Part shown: positions 5,644 to 46,709 of the stretch, in pieces
Layout of the letters: each line of letters begins with the position of its first letter
How positions within the stretch are numbered: the first letter of the stretch is position 1
Assembly: GCA_033398695.1 (NCBI GenBank)
Contig: CM065802.1
Coordinates: 142,276,096-142,340,095 of the forward strand
Source: Orobanche coerulescens
Taxonomy: Eukaryota; Streptophyta; Magnoliopsida; Lamiales; Orobanchaceae
Direction of reading: 5' to 3'
Length of the DNA: 64,000 bases
Made by a program: the position numbers and the translations under genes
The notes under the pieces: generated by a model
Databases searched by the model: none
What the model was told of the DNA's origin: nothing
Seen by the model: only the letters and a program-made list of their open reading frames with translations

Positions 5644-5970
5644 TAACGTACGTTAACCTGTCTTCATAACGTACGCTATGTATGTCGCCTTACGTACGTA
5701 ACATCAATACGTTAACGTACGTAATGCGGAAGATCCTCCAGCAGTCCGCCTTTCGGCGGGTGGGGCCGAGCAGGGGTAGGTGGTCGGGAGTCGACCGCGA
5801 CATCCAAGTCAACGGCTATTACGTACGTAATAGCTACATAGTTACGTACGTAACGAATTGCGTGTTTTGAGGCAGGGAGATTTGATGAAATTGGTTACGT
5901 ACGTAATGATCACATGATTACGTACGTAAAGGCTATAACGTACGTTAACCACGTTCGTTAACGTACGTAA
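5644..5970 (+). promoter_or_regulatory. Element A phased palindrome array (TTACGTACGTAA type), 10 units
   Basis: Twelve-base palindromes with core ACGTACGT start at 5644, 5667, 5690, 5713; 5819, 5842; 5895, 5918, 5936 and 5959. Steps are 23 bp within groups (one is 18), and groups are set off by 106 and 53 bp. The long spacer 5725-5818 is GC-rich with a hairpin (CCGCC/GGCGG). The array ends just before the TATA box. TACGTA is an ACGT-core site of the kind bound by plant bZIP factors; no binding is shown here. Confidence 0.85.
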
Positions 5971-5984
5971 TGTCAAGTTCAGAT

Positions 5985-5992
5985 TATAAAAG
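5985..5992 (+). promoter_or_regulatory. Element A TATA box
   Basis: TTATAAAA begins 26 bp after the start of the last palindrome. A pyrimidine-rich stretch (CATTCACTTCCTACTCGACC) follows about 20-40 bp on, a plausible transcription start. Confidence 0.6.
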
Positions 5993-8380
5993 TATGACTT
6001 GCCATTCACTTCCTACTCGACCTTTTTCAATCTCCCAACTGAGGAACGATTCCTTTCCCTTCCAACTTCGTTTCTAAGCCTTTCTAACTTGTGTTGTAGC
6101 CTCAACACTTGATTGGTGACTTGGAGAAGCTAGAGATTGAAGTGTATCCCTTGAAGTGTTGGTGTTGTTCTTCATTTTAAGGTTGGTCTTTCTTTAACTC
6201 ATATCAATTCCATGATTATGATGATGTTAGTAGATAAATACTTCACATAATGTTAGTTTAAACTAGTGCAAACATGATAAGTTAATTGAATCATGCTCAA
6301 ACTAGTGAAGATAAACATTGAATGTATTAGTGTTACTTCTTGTTGTAAATAACTTCATAATGTGATTGTGTTGATAATGATATACTTAAAACCTGATGTA
6401 TAACATGAGAATTGAAGTTAATTATAGTCTCAACACTAGGAACATGTTAGGGATGATATCCTTAATGATTAAAACTGAGAAATGTTAAAATTGTCTTGAA
6501 CATTCTATTGATTCTTGAAGGTAGTATGGAACCATGATTTTTGGCCTCTAAAACCTTTGTAATAAAATTGTTGAAAAGATTATATTAACCCTTTGAAGAT
6601 GATCTTCGCTAGATGGGTTGAAGTTACTTCCAAAATTTCAAGTATCCAATGATATAACTAGGCTTTTAATAAATTCTTCAAAGTAAATCAATGAATGTTG
6701 ATAGAAGGAAGTTGTAATCTTCATATGTTCGAATTTATTGATTTCATTAAAGGGTGTTAATCACTACATTAATAGATTGATAATGTTCTTAAGAGGATTG
6801 TGTTGAATATGATGATACAAATGCGGTAGATGAGTAGCCGAATTCCATTTCATTAATCAGGGCGTATTAAGAAACGTAAATTAAGATGATGTTCTTAATT
6901 CACTAAAAACTTAAACTTATGTTTCATATAGTAATCAAGTTTTGAATGTAATCGTTGGTAAAATAATGAAGAACGTAATTAAACACAAACTTATATCGTA
7001 ATTGGAAGTGTCGATGATTTGAAAAGATATTTTCACGATATTACATTGATGATAAACTAGACATCAAGTATTTGACATTAAGGTTAGAATATGTGAACGA
7101 ACATGATAAACATACAATGATTTGTAATAAGAACATTAAAATGATCAATAGGATGATTGATTTATTCAAGTAAAATTACGAATATTATTTATGTAATAAT
7201 ACCATTATCGTACAAATGTGTTGTTGAATGAATTACATTTCATTCAAGGTGCTTGTTCACGTGAGTATTGTTAGACGAGGATACCGTTCGTTTGACCATT
7301 CGAAGAAGGATTATTCATCCACGGAATTGAGGCAAGTTATCTTGCTTGGTTACAATGATGTGTGGATTCTTATGATGATTATGCATTTCGTGTATATGAA
7401 ACACCTATAAACTTGTATCTTGTGACTTCAGGTTGTTCTTAATGATGTCCCGTTTTCATCATGGGATTGTATTCCCAAGTTCGTTACTTTTGGACCCTTG
7501 ATATTGTTGAGCTTTGTTGACACTTCGGTGAGTTGTTCGATTCCTTAGTAAAAGTGTAATTCGTTGAGTTTCGTTGTCATGTTGTATCGTGACATCTATG
7601 GAGTCATATCTGCGCGCCGATTGGTTATGTGTAGGATTTTTAGCCGGGCACTTGATGATCATGCGTGGAGGTTTTCCGCATTTAGATCGTGCACACGAGA
7701 CGTAGTTCGTGAGGCTAATTAGGTACATCGTCCCACGTATATTCTGGATTCCGTATACGGGGTGGACATGTGCACGGACACATTTCCGGATCGGGCGTAC
7801 TGTGACGTCCGTCTTGAGCCATAGTATATGGTCGTTCGTATATTTGGTTATGTTCGACGATTGGGATCGATTGTTTATACGCCTTGGGTATATTCGGTAG
7901 TCGGAGGATTTCTATGAGATCAGTATATAAGAATTATATAAAGTCATGAGAATTCTACTCATGTATAGCTGACCCGGAGGCATGGGTCGAAACACTTGTA
8001 TTTCAGGGCGAGGAAAGGGCAAGGCACAGGAGGAGCACAATGGCGACGGAGGATTCTGATGTATGCTATTTCGGGGGCCCCGAGTCTTTTGGTTGTTCGG
8101 TTATGTTTTATTGTGACTTTCATTTTTATTTTGTGTCGGATGAATGTACTAAGATTTGTTAGGTACTGCCCATCGTCATATGGTCTGTACCGAATTTGGA
8201 TCCTGTGTTTGTTTGCCCGTATTTAAAGATATGAATAACTCATGCTCCACACCCGGGTTTTGATAAATGTTGTGGTACGGTGCCACGTTGTCAGATTTTA
8301 AATGTATATTGTGATATCGCCTGGTGGGTCCCAGTAGGGGTCCACGGCACTGTAATAGCCACTGTTTTGGGGCTGTTACA

Positions 8381-8893
8381 CAGTTAACAGATGTTATGTC
8401 TATTGTCTTACAAAACTACTCTGTTGAAGATGATGAAAAACTGTGAGCTGAGCACACAGAAATTGTTTCTAAATATCAAAATGCACTCATAAAGATTTAA
8501 CAAGAAAACAAGTCATATTTTGAGCAAATTGATTGTAAAAAGAAAGAATTCAAGTCTGACAAACTGTCTTACGAGCGTGCTTACAACGAATTGGAATAGA
8601 AAAATAAAGATTTGAATGCTCAGTTAGCAACTTTGAAAGGAAAACGTGTGGATACTAATTTTGCAAAACCATTGACAACGGTAGAATCTCAAGGATCAAA
8701 TAATGTTTCAAATCACATTCTTCAAAAGACAAGATTTGCACCGTCAGCCAATGTGAATAAGGTTAACACAAAACCATTTGAAATCATCTCTATGAATCCC
8801 TTCCCAGTTGTTATTTCATGTTTTCTTTTCAGTTTGAATTGGCTAGTGGAATCGTCTTTAACACATAAATGTAGGAAAAAACCAATACATTAA
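8381..8893 (+). pseudogene. Ty1/copia gag C-terminal relic
   Basis: Immediately right of element A, one frame interrupted by stops encodes a Lys/Glu-rich coiled-coil-like stretch (YERAYNELE, then NKDLNAQLATLKGKRVD), followed by a Ser/Asn-rich tail. This resembles the region before the zinc knuckle of plant copia gag proteins. No knuckle, LTR or pol follows. It is an old fragment that A inserted beside or into. The assignment rests on pattern memory, not an alignment. Confidence 0.5.
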
Positions 8894-9040
8894 TATGAGC
8901 TCATGATCATATATTGAGTATATGCAATTAGATATAAAACACCATTAACGGCAGCCTCGTGATTAATTGTTTTCTCCAAACTTGAAAATTGATTTGCGGG
9001 TTTCGTGGGTGAGACATGAGTTGTCTGACGTGCCTCATGA

Positions 9041-9328: not shown

Positions 9329-9417
9329 CTATATTGTTTTTCAAAGAGAAATATATGTTAGAATGACAATTCCATGCAAGCAGTAGGCAATCCACCCTCA
9401 TTCATATATGTTGTCGA

Positions 9418-9750: not shown

Positions 9751-10026
9751 TCAAACTAATTCGAATTTCGCCAGTACAGGAACATAATTTTCCTCACTGA
9801 ATCAAACTTAATTTCAAACTAATTCGAATTTCACCAATCAAACTTAATTTCACATGAATCCATAACTCAGAAGACATACATACTACAAATACAAATAACA
9901 AATTAAGATATAAAGCCTTACAATGTAAAGATAAGGAGGAGGTGTTGTGAAGCAAACTGGAGAGCCTTACAATGTAAAGATATGGAGGATGTGTAGTGAA
10001 TCAAACTTTTATAGACTTCATTTTGT

Positions 10027-10255: not shown

Positions 10256-11163
10256 AAGTAGGGTTAGATTTTGGCTGAAGTATGGTTTTTTTGGCTGAAG
10301 TATGGCTTTTAGATATTTTAAAAGTAGAAATTTATCTCCACTAAAATATTAGGACATGACTTCATATATTAACGAGGCATTCGGACTCGTGCGATGCACC
10401 GATTTTATTTTTTGATAAAAAATTGAACTTTTGCCGATGTCTAAAACTCAACTTTTTTAGACAACCAATACTTCATCGTAAAAGCACATATTAATATTGT
10501 AGTTTAGGCTTGCTTTTTAATGTCAAAATCCTCTTGTTCATGTGTTTAATTCTTCTTGTTCATGTGTTTCTCGTGAGATAGATGTTTCAGCTAAAGTAGT
10601 TTTATTCTTTGTTTCCGTTTAGTAACTGCACACTTTATTCCATAATTTTGAGTTTTATGATATAATCCATTGTTTGTATATTTGTATTATAAGTAATAGA
10701 TCGATAAGTCTAATATTTTAAAATCGAAGAAAAATAAATTAATTAGTTCATGTATGAGATTATTTTTTGAACACACTGACTTATACAATAAGTAATTAAG
10801 TTTTCAAAGTAAATGTAATGAAAATTTTTTAATGAAAGCCAAAATAGCATTTCACTCAAAATATTTCATGTGCTTCAACCCTTGTATCATAATCGTATAA
10901 ATGTATAAGTATTAGTTTTCAGTAAATGATATTTATTTGTGTTCACTTTCTCAATAGGTTTTAACATAACATAAATGTAACGTTCATGTGATATAATGAT
11001 AAAACAATGCACTATATTTTACATTTGTACATGCTCTATTATGCGTGATGTTCTATGCGAGATGCCACATGTAATAGCATGTTAACTAATATTTAGTGCA
11101 ATTATATATGTGATTACCTTTGATAAGTACTAAAAGTGACCTTTTTACCACCAAATGAGAATC
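10256..11163. other. AT-rich intergenic DNA
   Basis: No gene, RNA gene or recognisable transposon. It ends with GAATC (11159-11163), the left target duplication of element B. Confidence 0.7.
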
Positions 11164-14079
11164 TGTAACAGCCCGAAAATAGTGGCTATTACAGTGCCGT
11201 GGACCCCCTACTGGGACCCACCAGGCGATATCACGATATACACTTACAACCTGACAACGTGGCACCGTACCACAATATTTATCAAAACCCCGATGTGGAG
11301 TATGGGTTATACATGTCTTTAATACGAGCAAACGTACACAGGATCCAAATTCGGTACAGACCATATGACGAAGGGCAGTACCTAACAAATTATAGTACAT
11401 TCATCCGACACAAAGTAAAATGAAATTCATAATGAAACATAACCGAACATCAAAAGACTCGGGGCCCCAAAATAGCATACTTCAAAACCCTCCGTCGCCA
11501 TTGTGCTCCTCCTGTGCCTTGCCCTTTCCTCGCCCTGAAATACAAGTATTTCGCCCCAAACCACAGGGTCAGTTATACATGATAATAATTCTCATGACAT
11601 TATACAATTCATATATATACGGATCTCAAAGAAAGCAATCGACTACTGATTATACCCCGCAGGCGTATAAACAGTCAGTCCCAACTGTCGAACATAACTA
11701 AATATACGAACGACCATATAATATGGACCAAGACGGACATCACAGTACGCCCGATCCGGAAATGTGTCCGTACACATGTCCACCCCATATACGGAATCCA
11801 GAATATACGTGGGACGATGTACCTAATTAGCCTCACGAACTACGTCTCGTGTGCACGATCTAAATGCGGAAAACATCCACGCATGATCATCAAGTGCCCG
11901 GCTAAAAATCCTACACATAACCAATCGGCACGCATATATGACTCCAGAGATGTCACGATACAATATGACAACGAAACTCAACGAATTACACCTTTATCAA
12001 GGAATTGAACGACTCACCGAAGTGTCAACAAAGCTCAAAAGGACCAACGGTAACAAGGATGGTAATTTCGGGTATATCATCCCAACACCATGATAATACG
12101 ATCAAGGGCATCACCATATCAAGAATCATAGATTATCAGAACATTTCATACACACGAAACGCATAATAATCACAAGAATTCAACCATCATTATAACCAAG
12201 CAAGATAACTTGCCTCAACTCCGTAGATGAATAATCCTTCTTTGAATGGTCAAACGAACGGTATACTCGTCTAACAATACTCACGTGAACAAGCAACCTT
12301 GAATGAAATGTAATTCATTCAACAACACATTCGTACGATAACGGTGTTATTACATAAACAATATTCATAAATTTACTTGAATAAATCAATTATCCTATTG
12401 ATCACTTTACTGGTCCAATTATAAATCATCATGTGTTTATCATGTTCATTCACATATTCTAACATTAATGTCAAATACTTGAAGTCCAGTTTATTACCAA
12501 TGTAACATTGTGAACACATCTTTTCAAATCATTGGCACTTCCGATTACGATATAAGTTTGTGTTTAATTACGTTCTTCATTATTTTACCAACGATTACAT
12601 TAAAACTGATTCCAATATGAAGCATAAGTTTAAGTTTTTTGTGAACTAAGAACATCATCTTAATTTACGTCTCTTAACATACGGATTAATGAAATGGAAT
12701 TTCGGCTACTCATCTACCGCATTTGTATCACCATATTCAATACAATCCTCTTAAGAACATTATCAACATATTAATATAGTGATTAACACCCTTTTAAGTT
12801 ATCAACGAAATCGATTAACTTGAGCATATGAAGATTACAACTTCCTTCTATCAAAATCCATTGTTTTACTTTTGAAGAATTTATTAAAAGTCTAGTTATA
12901 TCATTGGGTGCTTGGAATTCTAAATGTAACTTCACCCCATCTTGTGAAAATTATCTTCAAAAGGGTTAACATAATTCTTCCAACAATTTATTACAAAGGT
13001 ATTAGTTTAGAGGCCAAAATTATGGTTCTATATTACCTTCAAGAATCAATTGAATGTTCAAGACAAGATTAGTACCTCTCACCTCTAATCATTAAGGATT
13101 TCATCCCTAACATGTTCCTAGTGTTGAGACTATAATCATCTTCCGATTATCATGTTATAAATCCGGTTTTATCTATCATTATCAACACAACCATATTATG
13201 AAGTTATAATACATCAAGAAGTAATAATAATACTCCTAATGTTGATCCTTACTTAGTTTGAGCATGATTCAATTAATTTATCATGTTTTACACTAGCTTA
13301 ACTAACATCATGAAGTGTGTATATGCTAACATCATCATAAGCATAGATTTAGTATGAGTTTAAGAGAAACCAACCTCAAAATGAAGAACAACACCAACAC
13401 TTCAAAGAACACACTTCAATCTCCAAATCTTCAAGTCACAAACCAAGTGCTGAAGCTCCAACACAAGTTAGAAGGGCTAGAAACAGAGTTGGCAGGGAAG
13501 GGAATCGTTTTTCTCAGTTGGGAGGTTGAATGGGTCGAGCAGGAAATGAATGGCAAGTCATATTTTTATAACCTGAACTCGGCATTACGCACGTTGAAGA
13601 AAGGGGTTAACGTACGTTATAGTCCTTACGTACGTAATCTCGTGATCATTATGTACGTAATCAATTTCATCAGATCTTTCTGACTTAAAACACGCAAAGC
13701 GTTACGTACGTAAATATATAGCTATTACGTACGTAATACCCGTTGACTTGGCTGTCGCGATCGACTCCCGACCACCTACCCCCGTATGGCCCCACCCGCC
13801 GAAAGGCGGGCTGTTGATGGATCTCTTGCATTACATACGTTAACATATAAATGTTACGTACGTAAGGCTACGTACATAGCGTACGTAAAGAAGATAGGTT
13901 AATGTACGTTAAGTTCTATAACAAGCATAAATGGAATTCTCCCAATATCACCCAACAATTAATATAGTATGAATGACCATGACATAATTCGTCGATATAC
14001 TTACTACAATAATACAGATATGGTGTGAAAATACTTGGTTTAAATCAGAAAATACAATAGTAAAGGCGAGGGTATTACA
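11164..14079 (-). repeat. Element B 3' LTR (2,916 bp)
   Basis: On the plus strand it starts TGTAACAGCC and ends GGGTATTACA, the reverse complement of A's LTR ends. Its length is within 2 bp of A's 3' LTR. The mirrored palindrome array is at about 13585-13920. Confidence 0.94.
13564..13920 (-). promoter_or_regulatory. Element B 3' LTR palindrome array and TATA box
   Basis: Mirror of the A array. The TATA box (TTTTATA on plus) is at 13564-13570. Palindromes start at 13585, 13608, 13626 and 13649, with steps 23, 18 and 23 exactly as in A. A group of two near 13702 and 13725 follows, then a group of four from about 13830. Several units carry single changes, such as TTACGCACGTTG at 13585. Confidence 0.83.
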
Positions 14080-14096: not shown

Positions 14097-14114
14097 GGAG
14101 TTTCGTCCTCGAAA

Positions 14115-18580: not shown

Positions 18581-18980
18581 TCTTCTGTAACAGCCTGAAA
18601 ACCGTGGCTATTACAGTGCCGTGGACCCCCCTATCGGGACCCACCAGGCGATATCACGATATACACTTACAACCTGACAACGTGGCACCGTACCACAATA
18701 TTTATCAAAACCCCGATGTGGAGTATGAGTTATACATGTCTTTAATATGAGCAAACGTACACAGGATCCAAATTCGGTACAGACCATATGACGATGGGCG
18801 GTACCTAACAAATTATAGTACATTCATCCGACACAAAGTAAAATGAAATTCATAATGAAACATAACCGAACATCAAAAGACTCGGGGCCCCCTAAATAGC
18901 ATACTTCAAAACCCTCCGTCGCCATTGTGCTCCTCCTGTGCCTTGCCCTTTCCTCGCCCTGAAATACAAGTATTTCTCCC

Positions 18981-19626
18981 TGATACCGAGCTGATCGGTC
19001 ACCAAGAACCGGGTTAATCTTAGGAGTTTAGCTAAGAAAAAATGTATGAAGTATTGTCTTTCTTTCTCTCTCTAAAATATGTTATATTCTCAGGATGTCT
19101 CGCCTTTTGAGAAACCCCCTCTCTCCCTTTTATAGGAGGGGGGTTCCTTATTGTCTAAGATTTTCCCTGATTTCCAGAGAAAATCCCGGATATCCAGGGA
19201 TTCAGGCTGCGATTTTCCATCCCTGGATTTCCGGGATTGCAAGGTATGGGCTCTAAATCCCTGGATCTCAGGGATTCTGTCAGGTGAGTCAGAATCTTCT
19301 TTCCCAAGAGTTCGACCTTCCTGAGCTCGGTGGTTTTAGGTCGGCTCATATTATAAAAGATTACTTAGGTCGGGTCATTCCTATTCAAATCCGTAGGTCG
19401 AGAGACCTTTGAGGTCGGCAACCTTTTATCAGATATCATAGGTCAGCGGGGCCTCTGAGGTCGGCGCCCTTCTAACAGATGTCATAGCTAAGTGGGGCCT
19501 CCGAGGTCGGCGACCTTCTAAAGGACCTTGAGGTTGGCATCCCCTTATCTAAGAACCTAGGTCGGACTTTTATTGGTCCATATTTTAAACTGGGTTTTCA
19601 GGGAGCGTACATTCGGCGTCCTATCA
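18981..19626 (-). repeat. Solo LTR of an unrelated family nested in the B 5' LTR
   Basis: A 646-bp insertion starts TGATACC and ends CTATCA (plus strand), giving TG...CA termini. CTCCC (18976-18980) and CGCCC (19627-19631) flank it, a 5-bp target duplication with one change; the empty site in B's other LTR reads TTTCGCCCCAAACC. On the minus strand CCTATAAAAGG (near 19125-19135) is a TATA box followed by about 150 bp, so I orient it minus. Short repeats containing AGGTCGGC occur at 19410-19560. Family not identified. Confidence 0.85.
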
Positions 19627-21641
19627 CGCCCCAAACCACAGGGTCAGTTATACATGATAATAATTCTCATGACATTATACAATTCATATATATACAGATC
19701 TCAAAGAAAATAATCGACTACTGATTATACCCCGCAGGCGTATAAACAGTCAGTCCCAACTGTCGAACATAACCAAATATACGAACGACCATATAATATG
19801 GACCAAGACGGACGTCACAGTACGCCCGATCCGGAAATGTGTCCGTGCACATGTCCACCCCGTATACGGAATCCAGAATATACGTGGGACGATGTACCTA
19901 ATTAGCCTCACGAACTACGTCGCGTGTGCACGATCTAAATGCGGAAAACATCCACGCATGATCATCAAGTGCCCGGCTAAAAATCCTACACATAACCAAT
20001 CGGCACGCAGATATGACTCCAGAGATGTCACGATACAACATGACAACGAAACTCAACGAATTACACCTTTATCAAGGAATTGAACGACTCACCGAAGTGT
20101 CAACAAAGCTCAAAAGGACCAACGGTAACAAGGATGGTAATTTCGGGTATATCATCCCAACACCATGATAATACGATCAAGGGCATCACCATATCACGAA
20201 TCATAGATTATCAGAACATTTCATACACACGAAACGCATAATAATCACAAGAATTCAACCATCATTATAACCAAGCAAGATAACTTGCCTCAACTCCGTA
20301 GATGAATAATCCTTCTTTGAATGGTCAAACGAACGGTATCCTCGTCTAACAATACTCACGTGAACAAGCAACCTTGAATGAAATGTAATTCATTCAACAA
20401 CACATTCGTACGATAACGGTATTATTACATAAACAATATTCGTAAATTTACTTGAATAAATCAATTATCCTATTGATCACTTTACTGGTCCAATTATAAA
20501 TCATCATGTGTTTATCATGTTCATTCACATATTCTAATATTAATGTCAAATACTTGAAGTCCAGTTTATTACCAATGTAACATTGTGAACACATCTTTTC
20601 AAATCATTGGCACTTCCGATTACGATATAAGTTTGTGTTTAATTACGTTCTTTATTATTTTACCAACGATTACATTAAAACTGATTCCAATATGAAGCAT
20701 AAGTTTAAGTTTTTTGTGAACTAAGAACATCATCTTAATTTATGTCTCTTAACATACGGATTAATGAAATGGAATTTCGGCTACTCATCTACCGCATTTG
20801 TATCACCATATTCAATACAATCCTCTTAAGAACATTATCAACATATTAATGTAGTGATTAACACCCTTTTAAGTTATCAACGAAATCGATTAACTTGAGT
20901 ATATGAAGATTACAACTTCCTTCTATCAAAATCCATTGTTTTACTTTTGAAGAATTTATTAAAAGTCTAGTTATATCATTGGGTGCTTGGAATTCTAAAT
21001 GTAACTTCACCCCATCTTGTGAAAATTATCTTCAAAAGGTTTAACATAATTCTTCCAACAATTTATTACAAAGGTATTGGTTTAGAGGCCAAAATTATGG
21101 TTCTATATTACCTTCAAGAATCAATTGAATGTTCAAGACAAGATTAGTACATCTCACCTCTAATCATTAAGGATTTCATCCCTAACATGTTCCTAGTGTT
21201 GAAACTATAATCATCTTCCGGTTATCATGTTATAAATCCGGTTTTATCTATCATTATCAACACAACCATATTATGAAGTTATAATACATCAAGAAGTAGT
21301 AATAATAATACTCCTAATGTTGATCCTCACTTAGTTTGAGCATGATTCAATTAATTTATCATGTTTTACACTAGCTTAACTAACATCATGAAGTGTGTAT
21401 ATGCTAACATCATCATAAGCATAGATTTAGTATGAGTTTAAGAGAAACCAACCTCAAAATGAAGAACAACACCAACACTTCAAAGAACACACTTCAATCT
21501 CCAAATCTTCAAGTCACAAACCAAGTGCTGAAGCTCCAACACAAGTTAGAAGGGCTAGAAACGGAGTTGGCAGGGAAGGGAATCGTTTTTCTCAGTTGGG
21601 AGGTTGAATGGGTCGAGCAGGAAATGAATGGCAAGTCATAT

Positions 21642-21990
21642 TTTTATAACCTGAACTCGGCATTACGTACGTTAAAGAAAGGGGTTAATGTACGTTATAG
21701 TCCTTACGTACGTAATCTCGTGATCATTACGTATGTAATCAATTTCATCAGATCTTTCTGACTTAAAAACGCAAATCGTTACGTATGTAAATATATAGCT
21801 ATTACGTATGTAATAGCCGTTGACTTGGCTGTCGCGATCGACCCCCGACCACCTACCCCCGTTCGGCCCCACCCGCCAAAAGGCGGGTTGTTGATGGATC
21901 TCTCGCATTACGTACGTTAACATATGAATGTTACGTACGTAAGGCTACGTACATAGCGTACGTAAAGAAGATAGGTTAACGTACGTTAAG
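21642..21990 (-). promoter_or_regulatory. Element B 5' LTR palindrome array and TATA box
   Basis: TATA (TTTTTATA on plus) is at 21641-21648. Palindromes start at 21663, 21686, 21704 and 21727 with steps 23, 18 and 23, then a pair and a further group up to about 21990. Some CpG sites are decayed (ACGTATGT). Confidence 0.82.
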
Positions 21991-23625
21991 TTCTATAACA
22001 AGCATAAATGGAATTCTCCCAATATCACCCAACAACTAATATAGTATGAATGACCATGACATAATTCGTCGATATACTTACTACAACAATACAGATATGG
22101 TGCGAAAATACTTGGTTTAAATTAGAAAATTCAATAGTAAAGGCGAAGGTATTACAGAATCAGTCATGCATGTCTACAAATTTTGTTTCCATGCCATCGT
22201 GCAACTACATGAGAGTCGACACTTTTCACCAGTTAGCTAAAAAAGTTGATATTTTTACCATCACATAAAAACATAAAACATAGAGCTCAAATAAGAAGCT
22301 GAAATTCACATAAAAAATAAAATATAGACCTCAAATAAGAATTTAAAATTTAAACCTCAAATAAAAATGGTCGTGTATCGATCTTGATATTTTAGTTGTC
22401 ATGTCGCTTACAACATCCCAACGCATCTATAGGAGAGTCTACAAAGCTCTATTATTGTAGCATAATTTAACAGGTATTAGACAATAAGTCTTTGGAGTAT
22501 ATAATTCACGTCTTCATTTGTACATCATTTCTACAGTCTTACTGATTGTTTAGCATTCGTCCCTTGAACACCTTCATGCATGTGAGGCAATATTCTTCTA
22601 GTTTACGACTCAAAAGTTGCGCCATATTGTTCCTTGACGTAAAGTGTTATATTTCCCTGTCAATTCTACATGTTAATAATGTAAAATGCATGGTTAAGGT
22701 TCTTAACCTCACATGAAACCAATGGATATTGTACGCATATAACTCACCTGGGGCATATCACCGTATGAGAGCATTGGGTCTTGTAGCTTACCGGTAAGGT
22801 AATGTTTTATAGTTGGTGTAAGATGCTATATACAACATTCCCCCGTCAATGAATTTCGTATTTCCATAGCATCGATGACTTCTTTGTAGACTTTTTATAT
22901 AGGCACAAATAGATGAATGTAGAAGCATCTTATTAATGCTTCCGTAAGTTAAAAGAGTCTTATTAATGCTTCGGTAACAATATGAAATGAAGTTGAAAGG
23001 ATTGTGCAAATTAATTGTTTCGGTAATAATATGATATGAAGTTGAAAAGAATGTGCAAAAAACAGGTTTATTAACTCAAATTTTTTATATATTAAAATTA
23101 TGTATTTGGCATGATGACATTTAAACTTTAATATTCCACATTAATTAGGAGGACTTAATCTTTATATATATAAGATTTGTAATGAGAATATTATTTTCGT
23201 ATGGAAATTATTATTTACATAAAAATACTTTTTTTTAATTTATAACCACAATCCATAATATTACTAGTGTACAGTCCGTAGAAATTTGACGGCGAATTAC
23301 TTTACATTGTAATTTATAAGTAAAAAGCTAATACAATAATAATTTAAGATTTTGTTAGGTTTCAACCACCCGGAATCATACCGCAGCCAATACATAGAAA
23401 TGATGAGGATGAGATTCGGCCATTCGAACTCATTTAGAATATATGTACTTATCCGTCTTAATCAAGATTGAAACATAATAGTGGATGAGATTGTTATTTC
23501 TTTTTTGGAAAAGGGCTTTTTTGAAATATTTGAAAAATATTTGTTTGTGACTTTTGGGATGAACTCAGCCTTTTCTTATCGGAATCGGCTCATTGAGCAA
23601 GAGTCATTGTTACAATGAGGTACGT

Positions 23626-29260: not shown

Positions 29261-29463
29261 TGTAATATCCAACAGTAATTCTTATCTACCGTTGTATTAT
29301 TCGGATAATTTGAGTACTGTTGTAATCATGTTACATTCAGTTAATATTTATTGATGTCGGGATATATCATAATAGATTTGATTATGACTATCATTCGCAT
29401 TGTGGTTGATTTCTTGACGTGGTGTAGATTGTTACATTTTTTTGGATAGATTTTGTGTGTGTT

Positions 29464-29788
29464 TAACGTACGTTAAGGCCTTAACCTAACGTACGCTAGA
29501 TTGTTAGATTTACGTACGTAATGGTATGCTGGTTACGTACGTAATGCTTGGGAATCTTATCTGATCTCACTTTCGACGTGGGGGGCCGGACACGATCCGG
29601 ATAAATGGCCTTTTCGAGGCAGCCAAGTTGACATATATTACGTACGTAATGCTCTGGCCCATAACGTACGTAATGATGTTAGTGTTTTGAGATAGTAACA
29701 TCTGGAGACATATTACGTACGTAACATTTTCAGTGTAGCGTACGTAAAGGGGTTAACGTACGTTATCTTCACGCGATAACGTACGTAA
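29464..29788 (+). promoter_or_regulatory. Element D 5' LTR phased palindrome array, 10 units
   Basis: Units start at 29464, 29487, 29510, 29533; 29638, 29662; 29713, 29736, 29754 and 29777. The 4-2-4 grouping and steps (23, 23, 23, 105, 24, 51, 23, 18, 23) match A's almost exactly, including the odd 18-bp step. The spacer at 29545-29637 is GC-rich with a short hairpin (CCGGA/TCCGG). Confidence 0.87.
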
Positions 29789-29800
29789 CGAGGTGTGCAG

Positions 29801-29808
29801 TTTATAAA
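29801..29808 (+). promoter_or_regulatory. Element D TATA box
   Basis: TTTATAAAAA begins 24-25 bp after the start of the last palindrome, the same offset as in the other families. Confidence 0.6.
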
Positions 29809-31987
29809 AAGACAGCTTGTGTCTTTCATTTGCACGTCCAAACTCCGATTTTTCTCTCCTTACACCCCTCCAAGTCGTGTTTGAGCTTTGCATCTTGGAT
29901 TGGAGCTTGTTGATTGGAAGTTTAGAGTTATCCTTGTAGCTTGGAGTGTGTTCTTGTGTTCTTGCTATTTTTTCTTCGTTTCTGAAGGTATGTTGTACGG
30001 TTCTACTCTACATTTTCGTAGTTATAATGTTAGTAATATAGTATACTACACCAAATGTTGAATTAATCAAGTAAAACATGTTTGTAGTTAAGCTTTATAA
30101 CACTTATTGATGAAAATGGTAACTAAGGGTTTGGAATGAGGTGTTCTTGATATTTTGATGATAATGGTCATGTTTAAATGAATCAAACTCTTCCTGCTAG
30201 ATTGTTAACATCATTAAGACAATAATAATCATTAGCTTCTTCATAGTTAAGTTTAATTGATGAAATTGTTGTCATAAAATGTGTTAGAACACCTTGTTGA
30301 ATGTTAGAAGATTAGTGTGGTGATTCTTGAATCTAATCTAGGTGAATTCATAGATAATGATAGTGGATTCTCCAGGTTAGTAAGGGGTTGTAAGGATGGT
30401 GTTAATATAAGATAATCATGATTGTGATGTAAGCTTATAACTAAATGAATTTAGTATAACCTTATTGTAGCTTACTATATTCAATCTAAATTTGATGTAG
30501 TGATGAACAAAGTTGTGCAGATTATCACCTTCAACATTTGTGATGTTCTTGGAAAGTTTAAACAATATAAGATGATATTAACAAACATAAATGATTGTTT
30601 AACATGTTCTTGATAAATCTTTATTCATAAGAACCATGCGAATTTTTGAGAATATCTTGTAAACCGAACATAAGAATGAATTGAGGAAAATAAAGTTCTT
30701 GGAATAGAATTTTGATATCTTGAGATAGTTTAACTATTCAAATTGAATTTAGGGTGTCGTCCCCCTGAATTCGATATCAATGATTATATGGATGTGTTAT
30801 TGAGTGAAGTGTATTTCATTCAAGGTCGATTGTTCGCATAATCGATATTAGTCGAGGACCGTCCGTTCGTTCGACAAGGGAGGATTCTCGTCTACATATT
30901 GTGGCAAGTTATCTTGCTTGGTTATAATGATGATTGAATTCTTGTGATGGTTATACATTTCGTGTATATGAAACACTTATTGAATTTGTGATTCGTAGTT
31001 CGATATTATTCTTGATGATGTTCCGTTTCTCATCATGGGATTGCATTCCCAAGTTCGTCACTTTGAATCGTTGATCTCGTTGATCCTTATTGTCACTTCG
31101 GTGAGTTTCTTGATCCTTAATCGGATATGTGATTTGTTGAATTCGTTGTCATGCTGTACCGTGACATATCTGGAATCATATCTGCGTGCCAATTGGTTAT
31201 TGTGTAAGATTTTTAGCCAGGCACATATATAGTCATACGTGGATGTTTCCGTATTGGACTGTGCACACGGGACGTAGTTCGTGAGGCTAATTAGGTACAT
31301 TATCACACGTATATTCTGGATTCCGTATACGGGGTGGATATGTACAAGGACACATTTCCGGATCGGGCGTACTGTGATGTCCATATTTGAGCCATATTGT
31401 TTGATCATTCATAGTCCATGTATGATTGGATATGTTCGACGGTTTGTGACTGATCGTTCATATGCCCGAGGGGTATGTTCAATAATCGGGATGTTTTCTT
31501 GAGATCTAATATATGTGAATTGTATAATGTCAGGATAATCATTTCTCATGTATATCTGACCCTGTGTTTTGGGCGAAATACTTGTGTTGTATTTTAGGTT
31601 GAGGAAAAGGCAAGGCACGGGAAGAGCATGGTGACGGCGAATGGTTCGAAGGATACTAGTTCGGGGGGCCCAAGTCTTTTGTTGTCCGGTTATGTTCAAA
31701 CCACGTAATGTTACTTTATTCCGCTTTATTTAAACTATTGTCTGGTTGTATTAATATTTGAAGTATATTCCATCTCCATATAGTTTATACTTGTATTTCG
31801 GATCCTGTGTATCATAAGGCCGTTGGTCATACCATTAATAAACTCATAATCGGAGTAGTGACTATTTATTGTGGTTTGGTATCACAAGGTAATACTTATT
31901 TAATCTGTATTTTGGTATCGCCTGGTGGGTCCCAGTGTGGGGTCCACGACACTGTAATAGCCGCCTTTTGGGATGTTACAAAAGATG

Positions 31988-32419: not shown

Positions 32420-33583
32420 ATGGAAAGAAATCTGAGAGGTCGTGGCAGAGGGGGACGAGGCCACGGAAGGGTCCGAATCCCGATACCACGAGCCAACAGG
32501 TGCGCGAATGTGGAGCATAATTCCGCAGGCAGTGATTCGCCTTCTAGGGACCAATCACACCACACTGGACGCGGGGATGCGCGTGTCGATCCTTACGTTG
32601 TGATGCAGGGCATGATGGCTCAGATGACCCAAATGGGTCAATTAATGGAGGCTATGCAGAGAGCTACTACCGACCAGCAACAGGGGCCTCATCCTCCACC
32701 TCCTGTGCATGGCGGGCCCGTGAGTCGGATCATTAGCGACATCTCTCGACAGCGACCCCTGAACTTTGAAGGCTCCTCTGAGCCTGCTGACATTGTACAT
32801 TGGATTGAACACTTTGAGAAATTATTCGAGATGGTGGACTGCCCCGAAGAGAATCGCGTCTCCTTAGCAGCTTACTATCTTAGAAAGGGCACCCACACCT
32901 GGTGGCTTTAAGTGAGGCCAGCTGATGGTGTGTATACTTGGGAGGAATTTAAAAACCTCATGCTAGAACGTTACTATCCAGGGCCACTCCGTGAGGCTAA
33001 GCTGTCAGAATTGCTGAACCTGGACCCGTCTGAAGACGATGATGTACTATCTTTTGCCGAGAAATTTCAAGCACTTCTTCCTTTCGCCTCGTCGATTATC
33101 CGAACGGAGGCCGATAAGATCAAATATTTTCTCAAGAGGCTTAAACCCCGAATGAGAATGCAGTTGTTAAATAACCACTATACGACCCTACCGGAGTTCA
33201 TCGAGAAAGCTCTGGAATACGAACTTACCGCAAAGGAGATTTCCAAGAAGCAACCACAGTCCAACAACAAGAGATCCAGGAACCAGAATCAGACTGACAG
33301 TAACCGGGGAACATTCAAGAAACCCCAGTCCTTGCCGAATCCTTCTGAACAACTACCCATGAAATCGAAGCCAGCCGGATCGCACTCTCGAGCGGTCAAC
33401 TCATCTATTGTGTGCTATAACTATGGAGACCAGGGGCACATCAGCTCCAAATGCCCGAAGCCGGCTGTTGCATGCCATACTTGTGGGAAGAATGGGCATC
33501 GTGCTCGTTATTGTAGGAATGGACCGGGACATGATCCAGTAGTGTCTCATGCTCCAGTTCACTTTCCTGTCCAGGACCGTGTG
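32420..33583 (+). pseudogene. Element D gag, part 1
   Basis: The ATG begins MERNLRGRGRGG. The gag core follows (WIEHFEKLFEMVDCP, then THTWWL) with TAA at 32909-32911. It continues in the same frame to two knuckles near 33410-33520: CYNYGDQGH (second Cys is Tyr) and canonical CHTCGKNGHRARYC. Coding is cut at 33583, in the linker before the protease, by element E; it resumes at 43766. Confidence 0.9.
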
Positions 33584-36018
33584 TGTAATACCCGGTTGTA
33601 ATTCAGTCATTATCATTCAGTAATTATCGTTCAGTAATTGTCACTCAGTAATTTTCACTCATTAATGATCATTTGTCACTCATATTCAATCATTGTATTC
33701 ACCAGTCAGAGTAATTGTATCGTGTATCAATCGTCATTCATCATCAATCTAGTTGGAGAATCGTGCCATGTTTATTATCATTGTCATCTTTATAGTGGGC
33801 GGTGTGTGAGGAGTAGCGCACGCTATGAACTCTCTTTAGCGCACGCTAATTGACTTCAGGTAGCGCACGCTACCTCTTATCACTAGCGCAGCTAGTGTAG
33901 TTCTAGTAGGTAGTCCAGAAGGCATTAGACTGCAGTTGGGTTGTAAGTAACGCATGTTATGAATGGTAAGTAGCGCGTGCTAGTAGGTCGGAGTAGCGCA
34001 CGCTATGCAGTCGGTGTAGCGCGCGCTAAGGTCGGATCAGGCGGAGTCCAGTGGCTACTGGACTGATTAGGAATAATTCCTAGCGCACGCTACGAGTAGA
34101 TATTAGTGTACATTAATCGGTGTCAGTAGCGCACGCTGAATCTTGTGTGTAGCGTGCGCTACCGCGATCATATCAGAGAACAGGAGGTTCTGGACTTCAG
34201 TACTGGACACCAGATAAATCGTTAGCACACGCTAACATTCTGTGTTAGCGCACGCTAAATACATGGTTGTAGCGCACGCTACCATTGCGAACAGAGGATA
34301 CTGGACTACCCAGTATACCCGTTAGCGCACGCTACGCACAGGAGCTAGCTAGCGCTAATCCGAGGATAGTACAAATTGGACAGTGTAGTCAAGATTCGTC
34401 ATTTGTCATTTCTTTTCATTCCTTCATCGATTTTGGGCGATTTGGAGCTTCTTGAAGAGTGTTCTTCGAGGTGAAATCAGCTATCAATATTTCCAAGCAT
34501 ATAATCCGGAGTAATCATCATTTCATCATCTACAAACATCATAATAAAGGTAATCACCTTTTGAATCTAGAAATTCGGAGATCAAGTGTTTTCCTTCCGA
34601 TTTATTCGTGTAAGCTTGGATTGTTGTTGGCATATGTTAGATATGGATTATCTACTTCGGATAAATGTATTCCTACGGATTTTATGGCATATATTTGGAT
34701 TTCATGAATTATTTGGGGTTTGATTCAAGAACACATTAGAGTTGACTTTGATATTTGGGGGTTTTCGATTGGATGTTGTCGTTAACTCGATTTGTGGTTT
34801 CCTATGGGATTATTGATATCATTGAAGGTGTTTTGTTGGTTTGATTACTCATTTTGGAGTTGGTTTTGATATATTAGGGATTTGGATATTATCGAAGGAT
34901 GTATGTTGCTAAGTATTCGCTAGAATGCCTCAATGAGTTTGGGTATTGTTGTATTGACGTTTGATTTGGTTATAATCGTGTTTTATACCTATATTGAGCA
35001 TTTGTTGGTAATTGTCATTGAAGGTTGTTCGAGCGACCGACATCTCATTGTAGGACGTTTGTTCGAGGAATGACATTCTTCACCGGTTGAGTAAGTTAAT
35101 TATAACTCGGTTAAAAGGATTTTCATTCCTTTCGTTTTTGTTCATTCATAATCATAATTCATTCATAATGTATTAACCGTATTGAGATTTGTAATTGTCA
35201 AATAATCACTTCATTCACGAGGAATGACGGTTCCAATAATTTCATTGAGCTATCATTCATTTCACCATCATTTCATCTCGGTGAGTCATTCTCGACTTTT
35301 TCGGATTGTTATTCATTATTATTCTTCATGGTCATTCTTGCCCATATGACCTTCTGGGTTCATATTGCGTGGCCGGGTGGGGATGTGTGGAATTTTTAGT
35401 CGGGCACGTGATAGTCATGTGTTTGGGTTCACCGACACATTGGACTGTGCACACGGTAACGTACCTCCGTGAGACTAATTAGGTACAAGGGCGGGTGTGT
35501 CCGGACACTGGTCTTGTGCACATGCACATACCATTACGGGCGTACTATAATGCCCCTCTTCAGCTTAATTTCATAATTGAGATATATAATGAATGTGTTT
35601 ATTCAACTCTTGAGGATTGTTTTTCTATGTAACTGACCCCGTTGGGGGATGTTGTTTTCAGGTCATGGCAAGGCTAAGGCACGAGAAGAGAACGTTGACG
35701 GCGAGGAGTCCCAGTGATACTAGTAGGGGGCCCCAGTCCTTTTTATTCACTCGTGTTTTCTTCATTTTATTTCCACTGCAGACTTCTGTGTGGATATTCA
35801 TTTCATTCAGTGTTGTATATTTTATCTTCATATAAAATATACATGTATGCTGTATTATCTTGGGTGTCTTGTAATGAAAATCCTCATCGGAGTGATTGAT
35901 GATATAATGTGGTTTGGTACTACAATTATATTATTTAATTCATTAATTTTCATTCGCCTGGTGGGTCACAGTCGGGGGTCCACGGCACCGTAATATCTGC
36001 CTAGTTTGGGGTGTTAAA
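33584..36018 (+). repeat. Element E 5' LTR (2,435 bp)
   Basis: Starts TGTAATACCCGG. Its end reads GTGTTAAA where the 3' LTR has GTGTTACA, so the terminal CA has changed to AA. The TATA box is also altered (TACAAA near 34370 against TATAAA at 42087 in the 3' LTR). The array is more decayed than in the 3' LTR. Confidence 0.94.
33814..34357 (+). promoter_or_regulatory. Element E 5' LTR palindrome array (decayed)
   Basis: Same layout as 41507-42074 but with more changed units, for example CACTAGCGCAGCTAGTG near 33885 and GTGTACATTAAT near 34107. It lacks one unit present in the 3' LTR (near 41987). Confidence 0.8.
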
Positions 36019-41242: not shown

Positions 41243-41261
41243 TTTCGGGGACGAAATTCTT

Positions 41262-41506: not shown

Positions 41507-42074
41507 TAGCGCACGCTATGAACTCTCTTTAGCGCGCGCTAATTGAGTTCAGGTAGCGCACGCTACCTCTCAACACTAGCGCACGCTATTATAGTTCTAG
41601 TAGGCAGTCCAGAAGGCACTGGACTGCAGTTGGGTTGTAAGTAGCGCACGCTACGAATGGTAAGTAGCGCGCGCTAGTAGGTCGGAGTAGCGCAAGCTAT
41701 GCAGTCGGTGTAGCGCGCGCTAAGGTTGGATCAGGCGGAGTCCAGTGGCTACTGGACTGATTAGGAATAATTCCTAGCGCACGCTACGAGTAGATATTAG
41801 CGTATGCTAATCGGTGTCAGTAGCGCACGCTAAATCTTGTGTGTAGCGCGCGCTACCGCGATTATATCAGAGAACAAGAGGTTCTGGACTTCAGTACTGG
41901 ACACCAGATAAATCGTTAGCGCACGCTAACATTTTGTGTTAGCGCACGCTAAATACATGGTTGTAGCGCACGCTACAAGAGGTACGTAGCGCACGCTACC
42001 GTTGCGAACAGAGGATACTGGACTACCCAGTATACCCATTAGCGCACGCTACGCACAAGAGCTAGCGCGCGCTC
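41507..42074 (+). promoter_or_regulatory. Element E phased palindrome array (TAGCGCACGCTA type), 18 units
   Basis: Units start at 41507, 41530, 41554, 41577; 41642, 41665, 41688, 41711; 41775, 41798, 41821, 41844; 41917, 41940, 41964, 41987; 42040 and 42063. Steps within groups are 23 bp, rarely 24; groups are 53-73 bp apart (start to start). Three spacers hold clean hairpins: 41604-41627 (GCAGTCCAG/CTGGACTGC), 41739-41758 (AGTCCAGT/ACTGGACT) and 42015-42033 (ATACTGG/CCAGTAT). Unit cores are GCGCACGC or GCGCGCGC. Confidence 0.9.
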
Positions 42075-42086
42075 ATCTGAGGACAG

Positions 42087-42092
42087 TATAAA
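42087..42092 (+). promoter_or_regulatory. Element E 3' LTR TATA box
   Basis: TATAAA begins 24 bp after the start of the last palindrome. The matching site in the 5' LTR is TACAAA. Confidence 0.6.
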
Positions 42093-43765
42093 TTGGACAG
42101 TGTAGTCCAGATTCGTCATTTGTCATTTCTTTTCATTCCTTCATTGATTTTGGGCGATTTGGAGCTTCTTGAGGAGTGTTCTTCGAGATGAAATCAGCTA
42201 TCAACATTTCCAAGCATATAATCCGGAGCAATCATCATTTCCAAGCATATAATCCGGAGTAATCATCATTTCATCATCTTCAAACATCATAATAAAAGTA
42301 ATCACCTTTTGAATCTAGAAATTCGGAGTTCAAGTGTTTTCCTTCCGATTAATTCGTGTAAGCTTGGATTGTTGTTGGGATATGTTAGATATGTATTATC
42401 TTCCTCGTATAAATGTATTCCTATGGATTTTATGGCATATATTTAGATTTCATGAATTGTTTGGGGTTTGATTCAAGAACACATTAGAGTTGACTTTGAT
42501 ATTTGGGGGTTTTCGATTAGATGTTATCGTTAACTTGATTTGTGGTTTCCTATGGGATTATTGATATCATTGAAGGTGTTTTGTTGGTTTGAAATACTCA
42601 TTTTGGAGTTGGTTTTGATATATTAGGGATTTAGATATTATCGAAGGATGTATGTTGCTAAGTATTCGCTAGAATGCCTCAATGAGTTTGGATATTGTTG
42701 TATCGACATTTGAGTTGGTTATAATCATGTTTGATATGTATATTGAGCATTTGTTGGTAATTGTCATTGAAGGTTGTTCGAGCGACCGACATCTCATTGT
42801 AGGACGTTTGTTCGAGGAATGACATTCTTCACCGGTTGAGTAAGTTAATTATAACTCGGTTAAAAGGATTTTCATTCCTTTCGTTGTTGTTCATTCATAA
42901 TCATAAGTCATTCATAATGTATTAACTGTATTGAGATTTGTAATTGTCGAATAATCACTTCATTCACGAGGAACGACGGTTCCAATCATTTCATTGAGTT
43001 ATCATTCATTTCACCATCATTTCATCTCGGTGAGTCGTTCTCGACTTTGTCGGATTGTTATTAATTATTATTCTTCATGGTCATTCTTGCCCATATGACC
43101 TTCTGGGTTCATATTGCGCGGCCGGGTGGGGATGTGTGGAATTTTTAGTCAGGCACGTGATAGTCATGTGTTTGGGTTCACCGACACATTGGACTGTGCA
43201 CACGCTAACGTACCTCCGTGAGACTAATTAGGTACAAGGGCGGGTATGTCCGGACACTCGTCTTGTGCACTTGTACATACCATTACGGGCGTACTATGAT
43301 GCCCCTCTTTATCTTAATTTCATAATTGAGATATTTCATGATTGTGTTTATTCAACTCTTGAGTATTGTTGTTCTATGTAACTGACCCCGTTGGAGGATG
43401 TTGTTTTCAGGTCATGGCAAGGCTAAGGCACGGGAAGAGAACGTTGACGGCGAGGAGTCCCAGTGATACTAGTAGGGGGGCCCGGTCCTTTTCATTCACT
43501 CATGTTTTCTTCATTTTATTTCCGTTGCAGACTTCCGTTTGGATATTCATTTCATTCAGTGTTGTATATTTTCTTCATATAAAATATACATGTATGCTGT
43601 ATTATCTTGGGTGTGTTGTAATGAAATTCGTCATCGGAGTGATTGATGATGTAATGTGGTTTGGTACTACAATTATATTATTTGATTCATTAATTTTCAT
43701 TCGCCTGGTGGGTCCCAGTCGGGGGTCCATGGTACTGTAATATCCGCCTAGTTTGGGGTGTTACA

Positions 43766-45697: not shown

Positions 45698-46049
45698 TGT
45701 AATACCCGGTTGTAATTCATTCATTCTCATTCAGTAATTATCAGTCTGTAATTGTCACTCAGTAATCTTCACTCATTAATAATCACTCATCATTCATGAA
45801 TCATTCATTTGCGTTCACTGTTGGCATGTTGTAATCGTATATCAGTTACCGATCATCATTTCATCTCCGTTTATAGATCGAGACGGGAGTATTATCATTT
45901 TCATTGTGATTGATAGCCTTGTACTGGGAGTATCATCTTTGGCTCGTATTAGACTTGTTCACTTTCACATTCGTGTGATATGTCGGATCATTCATCAGTC
46001 GTAGCGAGGAACCGGAGTTATCGGATTTTTCACCTTGGCCAGCATTGAG

Positions 46050-46692
46050 TTATGGCCGTAAGGACTTTGGGTTACGGCCGTAACAAAGGTTCGTTGTTTT
46101 CAGGCTATTTTGGACGAATGGGACTTACGGCCGTAAGGTTTCGGAATACGGCCGTAAGTTGAGCAGGTACGGCCGTAAGGCTTGGCCGGTTACGGCCGTA
46201 CGTGGTCCAGCAGGCTGCCCAGGCATTTTGGCCGAAGGCGAGTTACGGCCGTAAGGAGGGCTGGTTACGGCCGTAAGTGATCTTCGTAGATTCAGGTGTT
46301 GTCGGGCAAGGAGGGACTTACGGCCGTAAGGGTTGCGGCATACGGCCGTAAGTCGAGGAAGGTACGAACGTAAGGCTTAGCCGGATACGGCCATAAGCTG
46401 AAGGCAAGGTGCCTGGCCATTTTCGACGAAGGGGGCTTACGCCCGTAAGTTTGGACGGATACGGCCGTATCATCCGAGTTACGCCCGTAAGGTGTGCGGG
46501 TACGGCCGTAAGGATGTCGGCAGATGTTTTTGACGAAGGCGGGTTACGCCCGTAACTCAGGAGCGGTTACGGCCGTAAGTCTGTTGCGACTTTCGGAAAG
46601 CCGAAGTTACGGCCGTCTGAGTTGGCGATTCTGGCCGTAAGGCCGTTGACTTGGAATGTTACGGCCGTAAGAGGGCCGAGTTACGGTCGTAA
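46050..46692 (+). promoter_or_regulatory. Element F phased palindrome array (TTACGGCCGTAA type), about 22 units
   Basis: Units start at 46050, 46072; 46125, 46146, 46167, 46190; 46243, 46265; 46318, 46340, 46362, 46385; 46437, 46459, 46479, 46500; 46544, 46567; 46607, 46629; 46659 and 46681. Steps inside groups are 20-23 bp, mostly 22; groups start 53, 53, 53, 52, 44, 40 and 30 bp after the previous unit. Spacers share a degenerate TTTTNGACGAAGGCGG motif. Some units are altered (TTACGCCCGTAA, GTACGAACGTAA). Confidence 0.87.
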
Positions 46693-46702
46693 CTTCCGGC
46701 AG

Positions 46703-46709
46703 TATATAA
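46703..46709 (+). promoter_or_regulatory. Element F TATA box
   Basis: TATATAAG begins 22 bp after the start of the last palindrome; a CT-rich run follows (46725-46760). Confidence 0.6.

Follow-up and report, generated by a model that had tools for sequence, protein, structure and literature searches.

Palindrome pairs of near-fixed spacing upstream of the TATA box in long terminal repeats of Ty3-type retrotransposons from Orobanche coerulescens

Short palindromes are arrayed upstream of the TATA box in the long terminal repeats (LTRs) of retrotransposons in the genome of the plant Orobanche coerulescens, and the locus described here raises the question of why their arrangement should be kept when their sequence changes from one family to the next. 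The stretch that was analysed, referred to below as the window, is 64 kb of contig CM065802.1 (positions 142,276,096 to 142,340,095, forward strand) from the 3.65-Gb assembly GCA_033398695.1, and self-comparison resolves it into nested LTR elements designated A, B, C, D and E. The spacers between palindromes are nearly fixed in length and nearly free in sequence, and a similar grammar is found in five classes of motif. Judging from these sequence features, we consider it rather likely that the arrays are paired sites for an oligomeric activator and act as a transcriptional enhancer or upstream promoter within the U3 region of the LTR.

Each of the eight Ty3 LTRs in the window has 9 to 22 palindromes, 12 bp long, ahead of its TATA position, and the palindromic word is TTACGTACGTAA in A, B and C, TAGCGCACGCTA in D and TTACGGCCGTAA in E. 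Palindrome centres were placed with the family consensus, allowing up to three mismatches, and matches outside the arrays as well as one off-lattice match in each B LTR were set aside. The 3' LTR of A (A3) has ten TTACGTACGTAA-type units at 5644..5970 on the plus strand in groups of 4-2-4, with centre-to-centre spacings of 23,23,23,106,23,53,23,18,23, followed by a TATA box at 5985..5991. The two B LTRs, on the minus strand, each have ten lattice units, at 13584..13911 in an A-like layout (TATA at about 13570) and at 21662..21988 (TATA at about 21648); the B3 layout is identical to that of A, and B5 has 52 in place of 53. Element C, on the plus strand, has ten units in its 5' LTR (29464..29788; spacings 23,23,23,105,24,51,23,18,23; TATA at 29803) and nine in its 3' LTR (59491..59792; TATA at 59807), which lies beyond the range shown in the preliminary description. 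Element D, also on the plus strand, has 15 TAGCGCACGCTA-type units in its 5' LTR (33814..34357), followed by a decayed TATA box (TACAAA) at 34370, and 18 in its 3' LTR (41507..42074; groups 4-4-4-4-2; TATA at 42087). The plus-strand array of E, part of which is a 194-bp tandem duplication, comprises 22 TTACGGCCGTAA-type units at 46050..46692 in groups of 2-4-2-4-4-2-2-2, besides one weak extra match, and is followed by the TATA box TATATAAGG at 46703..46711. In dinucleotide shuffles (300 per U3) the mean number of near-palindrome pairs at 21-24 bp was 0.04-0.16, compared with 2-11 pairs observed; the exception to an otherwise complete separation is B3, where two pairs were observed and the shuffle maximum was three. 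The arrays reported in the preliminary description of this locus are real, as they were found in eight of eight LTRs, exceed all shuffles in seven of them and recur outside the window. Its family labels require correction, however, since what it called families D and E seem to be a single element's two LTRs (D5 and D3), and its family F seems to correspond to the solo LTR E.

Exact matches to TTACGTACGTAA-N6..16-TTACGTACGTAA, which are pairs 18-28 bp apart, occur at 23,464 places in the genome, and the reversed control gave none. Among 50 listed places, all within roughly the first 13 Mb of contig C1, the gap between the two words was 11 bp in 29, 12 bp in 17 and 6 bp in 4, and gaps of 7-10 and 13-16 bp were not present. 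Spacings of up to 60 bp were collected at 23 of 30 loci around such pairs (L009, L014, L017 and L019-L038; the other seven overlap with these or represent a neighbouring copy) and fell at 18-19 (19 cases), 23-24 (93), 33 (1), 39 (1), 41-43 (6), 46-48 (13) and 50-53 bp (17). A sample not chosen by motif consisted of 40 loci totalling 150 kb, 20 of 5 kb and 20 of 2.5 kb, taken at preset round coordinates on contigs C1-C9. It was searched with a motif-blind detector that requires at least four near-palindromic 12-mers resembling one another within 600 bp in either direction and misses smaller arrays. The detector found 20 arrays in 17 of the 40 loci (15 arrays at 12 loci in the first set of 20, and five arrays at five loci in the second) and none in five rounds of shuffling of the first 20 loci. 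The motifs fall into five classes, a (TTACGTACGTAA), b (TAGCGTACGCTA), c (TAGCGCACGCTA), d (TTACGGCCGTAA) and e (GTGCCGCGGCAC), of which b and e are absent from the families of the window. Repeated non-palindromic 12-mers at the same preset loci included some ordinary tandem repeats (periods 24, 44, 47, 53-54, 56-58, 64 and others), and by inspection they held no 23-bp comb besides shifted versions of the arrays. If the density of about one array per 7.5 kb applies genome-wide, these arrays would be among the commonest regulatory modules of the genome.

Within one array the units are 86-93% alike on average. Short spacers within an array are no more alike than chance predicts in A3 and C5, and any excess in D3 is slight (0.30 versus 0.27, a value reached by 5% of shuffles). 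Comparison between families gives the same picture. The A and C LTRs are related (78% identity over 7216-8107), and between A3 and C5 116 of 120 unit bases are identical (97%) compared with 20 of 72 short-spacer bases, with spacer lengths agreeing to within 2 bp; for B5 and C5 the figures are 111 of 120 (93%) and 18 of 72. Spacers of up to 30 bp in classes a-d were pooled from the preset loci, the motif-chosen loci and the window, where overlapping loci contributed each distinct pair or spacer once. Of these 280 spacers, 177 are 11 bp and 46 are 12 bp long, while 6 bp (20), 10 bp (12), 7-9 bp (8), 4 bp (1) and 18-30 bp (16) are rarer and 13-17 bp does not occur, with the qualification that the motif-chosen loci were picked for gaps of 6-16 bp so that longer gaps are under-sampled. 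In 114 non-redundant 11-bp spacers, information content is 0.00-0.06 bit per position at positions 2-10, to which the analysis was restricted because storing each spacer as its alphabetically first strand inflates A at position 1. It has to be asked whether such arrays could be the functionless product of slippage that multiplied a 23-bp unit. Tandem Repeats Finder (TRF) scores several arrays as tandem repeats, and E contains its 194-bp duplication and has short spacers more alike than chance (0.44 versus 0.39). Spacers are otherwise nearly unrelated and only the units are kept, as the A3-C5 comparison already demonstrates in contradiction of neutral duplication, and neither the spacing of 18 beside 23 nor the recurrent linkage to TATA agrees with it, so we regard this explanation as extremely unlikely.

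Conservation of the units is not maintained once an element has inserted. The two LTRs of B, C and D differ from each other at 0.075, 0.058 and 0.079 per unit site, respectively, versus 0.044, 0.049 and 0.047 per spacer site (pooled, 32 of 443 unit bases versus 35 of 752 spacer bases; p 0.07), and CpG transitions account for 18 of the 32 unit differences versus 9 of the 35 spacer differences (p 0.01). Units thus decay after insertion at least as fast as spacers do, and they are kept between families; this combination points to selection acting on the copies that replicate. The CpG-transition decay would also suit arrays that persist mainly through their use by silencing or recombination factors of the host rather than through any need of the element. 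Under such a regime, however, selection among replicating elements should delete units, which instead are kept at 97% (A3-C5) and 93% (B5-C5) beside short spacers at 25-28%, making a host-side target very unlikely as the reason for the arrays.

The preliminary description proposed a period of 22-24 bp in groups of two and four together with a recurrent offset of about 53 bp. Centre-to-centre spacing within groups is indeed 23-24 bp in A, B, C and D, plus one spacing of 18 in each A, B and C LTR, and 20-23 bp in E, and groups are mostly even in size, but pairs describe the geometry better than a period does. An offset of 53, 52 or 51 bp is found once in each A, B and C LTR, besides one of 105 or 106, and one of about 53 bp occurs once in each D LTR and in four of seven E gaps (53, 53, 53 and 52); it is accompanied by others (64, 65 and 73 in D3; 44, 40 and 30 in E). 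The prevalence of pairs was assessed by a sensitive rescan of the 20 detected arrays and one added by hand (L043 near 4706), two of these 21 arrays touching the end of a locus. Groups of two or four units made up 56 of 68 (35 and 21, respectively), and the remaining 12 had one, three or five units, some of the odd-sized groups adjoining a gap of 46-47 bp that resembles one decayed unit. The probability of an all-even layout under random grouping was 0.17 for A, 0.03 for D and 0.001 for E, values that are rough because of duplication. Spacing within the pair is 23 bp in all 19 pairs of A3, B3 and D3 (nine of nine in D3) and in four of five C5 pairs, and 21-23 bp in E, whereas spacing between pairs varies. 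Class e departs from the common grammar by its shorter pair spacing, its pairs being 19-22 bp apart and joined by 24, 40, 44 or 48-53 bp.

The two half-sites of a palindrome are not equivalent with respect to the pair. The half-site TAACG is found at 83 of 292 inner versus 45 of 292 outer positions in class a/b quartets and at 19 of 128 inner versus 5 of 128 outer positions in class a/b pairs, while in class e the half-site GTGCC is found at 12 of 36 inner versus 24 of 36 outer positions. Given the mostly even groups and this inner/outer difference, the module looks like a pair, which suggests that the pair carries a two-fold symmetry of its own, as a dimer of dimers would predict. Extension of the single dyads was considered and rejected, the flanks beyond the 12-mer being little more symmetric than expected.

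Even groups and asymmetry at the level of the pair would also fit stems formed in RNA or single-stranded DNA, in which neighbouring palindromes pair as a 12-bp stem with an 11-nucleotide loop that might serve small-RNA recognition, packaging or reverse transcription. Array RNAs do fold better than shuffled ones (z -5.7, -9.4 and -9.8), though trivially so for palindromes; complementarity to the partner in class a (74, mean 53) is slightly over the random maximum of 71; and small RNAs are attracted by the palindromes of Sirevirus elements, according to the available text of PMC5311732 and PMC10760457. Selection for stems should, however, lead to a change in one unit being matched in its partner, and the deviating outer bases are complementary to the partner in only 74 of 222 cases in class a, 32 of 94 in class b (random mean 41), 0 of 26 in class c, 2 of 17 in class d and 0 of 37 in class e. 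Moreover, partner matching in classes b-e does not go beyond the random range, pairing of flanks across partners has no consistent excess, and a hairpin requires neither a fixed loop length nor a fixed distance to TATA. We therefore judge a structural role to be improbable as the basis of the arrays.

That distance to TATA is short and recurrent. The centre of the last palindrome lies 21 bp before the first T of the TATA box in A, B and C, 19 bp before it in D3 and 17-19 bp before it in E. In the preset sample, 13 of 21 arrays had TATAA or TATATA at 17-34 bp beyond one of their ends (at 17-26 bp in 12 of the 13), and none had it at both; control windows contained these strings in 15 of 344 cases, which corresponds to about 2 of 21 expected by chance with two ends per array. 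In each of the five aligned LTRs (A3, B3, C5, D3 and E) the TATA box is preceded, at a distance of 0-2 bases, by a short CAG, suggesting a common ancestry of the core promoter. The linkers of D and E, which by eye resembled the TATA regions of these elements, were considered as decayed core promoters. In a test of 12 linkers, however, 8 of 300 shuffles scored at least as well as the best linker and 23-250 did so for the remaining ones, and the idea was dropped.

Turnover of the palindromic word is less complete than the preliminary description's phrase of replaced sequence implies. Words do differ by family, but A and E have the half-site TTACG in common and are distinguished solely by their two central bases, and the words of A, D and E all fit the skeleton TWRCGNNCGYWA, which was defined post hoc once the motifs were known and whose 72 occurrences in the window all lie inside these LTRs. 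The LTR at L042 aligns to E positions 1-217 (71%) and 1048-2675 (84.3%), the latter part running from about 40 bp past the TATA box to the end of the LTR, and carries a class e array whereas the array of E is class d. The LTRs at L046 and L069 have a common class e layout (21,51,21,24,20,51,21,44,21) and match E in short stretches past the TATA box (68% identity across 297 aligned bases and 74% across 180), and the LTR at L069 adjoins an integrase 70-72% identical to that of A. Likewise, D and E have their LTR ends in common but not their arrays. From these alignments, the simplest account would be exchange of U3 blocks between LTR lineages. The earlier proposal that geometry is kept under sequence turnover holds, in view of the near-fixed spacer length, the similar grammar in five classes and the different array on the E-like backbone of L042.

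We infer that the unit recognized would be a pair of 12-bp dyads 23 bp apart and about 35 bp overall, or 19-22 bp apart in the GTGCCGCGGCAC class, and that it would be read by a sequence-specific DNA-binding protein, probably encoded by the host, acting as a tetramer or as two dimers that cooperate. Pairs would be stacked into quartets and groups, and the last group, usually 17-26 bp before TATA, would help to position the initiation complex. The length of the spacer would be constrained while its sequence remained free, and the word would change when an LTR lineage swapped its U3 block or moved to a related protein; under this proposal geometry would be retained because the geometry of the oligomer is retained. 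Among the functions suggested earlier for the arrays, binding of a multimeric factor appears to fit best, given the pair module and the half-site asymmetry at pair level.

Several points weigh against an oligomeric activator. Five different words demand several factors or one of loose specificity, and no candidate is named. No TATAA or TATATA lies close to either end in 8 of the 21 sampled arrays. Mean pairwise identity among the 11-bp spacers slightly exceeds that of shuffled spacers (0.274 versus 0.257, maximum 0.261), in part because of the choice of strand. The inner/outer half-site comparisons were chosen post hoc after the table had been seen, and class c shows no clear difference (TAACG at 24 of 86 versus 18 of 86, p 0.37). 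In class a, deviating outer bases are mirrored within their own palindrome 48 times compared with a mean of 53 for random units; this mirroring is no better than chance, and strict symmetry of the single unit is therefore not maintained by matching changes. Mirror-base matching to the partner in class a does exceed random expectation (74 versus a mean of 53 and a maximum of 71 in 200 rounds), but a hairpin predicts likewise. The helical phase of group offsets is inconsistent: same-face binding was considered and rejected, as vector strengths over all units ranged from 0.07 to 0.58 for helical repeats of 10.2-11.5 bp per turn and no single period was best throughout. Helical phasing of the groups is not evident. 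Finally, copies of a family are not independent, which makes the P values for grouping, TATA linkage, units versus spacers and class c rough.

The main alternative to an activator is that the arrays are an anti-silencing landing pad, recruiting a factor that removes or blocks DNA methylation or methylation of histone H3 lysine 9 in the manner of VANC proteins at the short motif arrays of VANDAL transposons. All five motif classes possess symmetric CpGs, the CpG transitions between paired LTRs are consistent with methylated arrays, and the turnover of motifs between related families parallels that of VANC targets, which are arrays of short motifs in noncoding transposon DNA (PMC5735166, PMC10398659, available text). 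VANC is encoded by the element itself, however, and in the Ty3 elements of the window no open reading frame (ORF) of at least 150 amino acids is listed outside the gag-pol stretch, although shorter, broken or spliced ORFs are possible; the gag-pol stretch was assigned by ORF position, self-alignment and, for 20 of 25 listed ORFs, Pfam matches. The targets of VANC evolve by formation of tandem repeats, whereas the spacers of the arrays are nearly unrelated, and the available accounts of VANC mention no palindrome, fixed spacing or linkage to TATA (the string 'palindrom' occurs 0 times in the available text of PMC5735166 and PMC10398659). Anti-silencing is thus an unlikely primary function for the arrays.

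The closest known counterpart of the arrays is found in Sirevirus elements of the Ty1/copia superfamily. As described in the available text of PMC2829016, each element has 8-32 copies of a family-specific palindrome of 10-20 bp that contains CG, and the palindromes lie in clusters ahead of TATA in the upper LTR half, mostly form CpG islands and also occur before the env gene in 9 of 13 elements. Their sequence varies by family (Table 3 of PMC2829016), with a CGG-CCG core in 12 of 13. The arrays described here resemble them in having at least eight copies of one palindrome (9-22 per LTR) clustered before TATA. They differ in that the CGG-CCG core is absent from classes a, b and c, CGG/CCG being present in d and e, in the TWRCGNNCGYWA skeleton found in four classes, and in the Ty3-type domains of their elements; fixed spacing, pairing or different arrays on one backbone are not described in the available text of PMC2829016. 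The arrays work like those of Sirevirus without membership in that group, because the superfamily is different and three of the five classes have other cores. A second group that invites comparison is Del, also labelled Tekay. In Del the 5' part of the LTR is a CpG island that varies in length and sequence relative to the rest of the LTR, for which a 'moving target' role was proposed and which is absent from the eudicot group of that study (PMC4029996, available text). The arrays occupy the same part of similarly long LTRs (2.4-2.9 kb, inside the Table 1 range of PMC4029996) with a variable island. No palindromes are reported there, however, the string 'palindrom' occurring 0 times in its main text. 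In RLG_Quinta an upstream LTR segment is likewise proposed to have been replaced, with conservation from near TATA on, but the available text of PMC11302176 describes a single 162-bp nucleosome-placing motif and no palindrome array. In light of Sirevirus arrays and Del islands, the statement in the preliminary description that no named system matches was too strong. In the literature searched, no description was found of the spacing grammar, of a pair module or of a common backbone bearing different arrays, which is not proof of absence, and searches with the exact motif strings returned only papers that were unrelated as judged by title and start of abstract.

A broader possibility, which we put forward tentatively, is that many long-LTR Ty3/gypsy elements of this lineage have one promoter grammar, in which CG-dyad pairs at 18, about 21, 23-24 and 51-53 bp might be read by an oligomeric plant protein family that would fix the grammar, and the U3 cassette might be swapped within the lineage. 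If true, plant LTR elements would have a general promoter design, similar in kind to that of copia Sireviruses, which would also be the interface of an arms race legible from sequence alone. The sequence suggests a module size, symmetry, spacing and set of words, and therefore a host protein that would activate these abundant retrotransposons can be sought directly; where LTRs combine a common backbone with different arrays, nature has in effect carried out promoter-replacement experiments.

The elements themselves are arranged as follows. Element A is represented by its 3' LTR (5467-8380, plus strand), B by LTRs at 11162-14079 and 18584-22160 (minus strand) and C by a 5' LTR at 29382-31981 and a 3' LTR at 59387-62018 (plus strand), which are 95% identical. 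Element D (plus strand), with a 5' LTR at 33584-36016, a 3' LTR ending at 43765 and the target-site duplication GTGTG at 33579, is inserted inside C, so that the TTACGTACGTAA-type C family flanks D. E is a solo LTR at 45698-48372 (plus strand) with the target-site duplication CTTGA, and a copia element occupies 48706-58392; both of these also interrupt C. The scanned ORFs of A, B, C and D have Ty3-type gag, protease, reverse transcriptase, RNaseH and integrase domains in Pfam, and in A the order is reverse transcriptase (2723), RNaseH (3563) and integrase (4028 and 4805), the integrase following RNaseH as is the Ty3 type. The Ty3 elements are likely chromoviruses, a label that falls short of proof because the chromodomain match (PF00385) at the integrase C-terminus scores 19.6 and 19.7 bits, under the Pfam cut-off of 25.1. 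In a protein search, the named matches among the best 120 of 7487 were mainly from Tanacetum, with 51-78% identity.

Protein searches found no related elements in IMG/VR, and pattern scans of the same database gave eight contigs, of which only L002 has more than three skeleton matches in a row. L002 is a phage contig with terminase, portal and VapE-like genes, and at L002:5755-5935, upstream of the large terminase gene, it has about eight TTACGTACGTAA-like palindromes (by eye) with a spacing of about 23 bp; the same word and spacing as in plant LTRs presumably arose by convergence. In the LTRs of A, B and C, CpG is scarce past the TATA box (observed/expected 0.00-0.36 in 300-bp windows at LTR positions of about 601-1200) compared with 0.9-1.7 in the array stretch. 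The longer B LTR contains about 650 bp (18980-19627), downstream of the array, with no counterpart in the partner LTR, and this stretch includes a 46-bp tandem repeat at 19406-19521. In the leader of the copia element, after the 5' LTR, palindrome-like repeats of the form CCGTGTC-AGGC-GACACGG with a period of about 55 occur at 51038-51242, and no TATA was seen directly after them. The long linkers of D (41588-42039) have a second inverted repeat of the AGTCCAG..CTGGACT type, about one per linker by eye, and a TTTTGGACGAAGG-like motif is common to several linkers of E.

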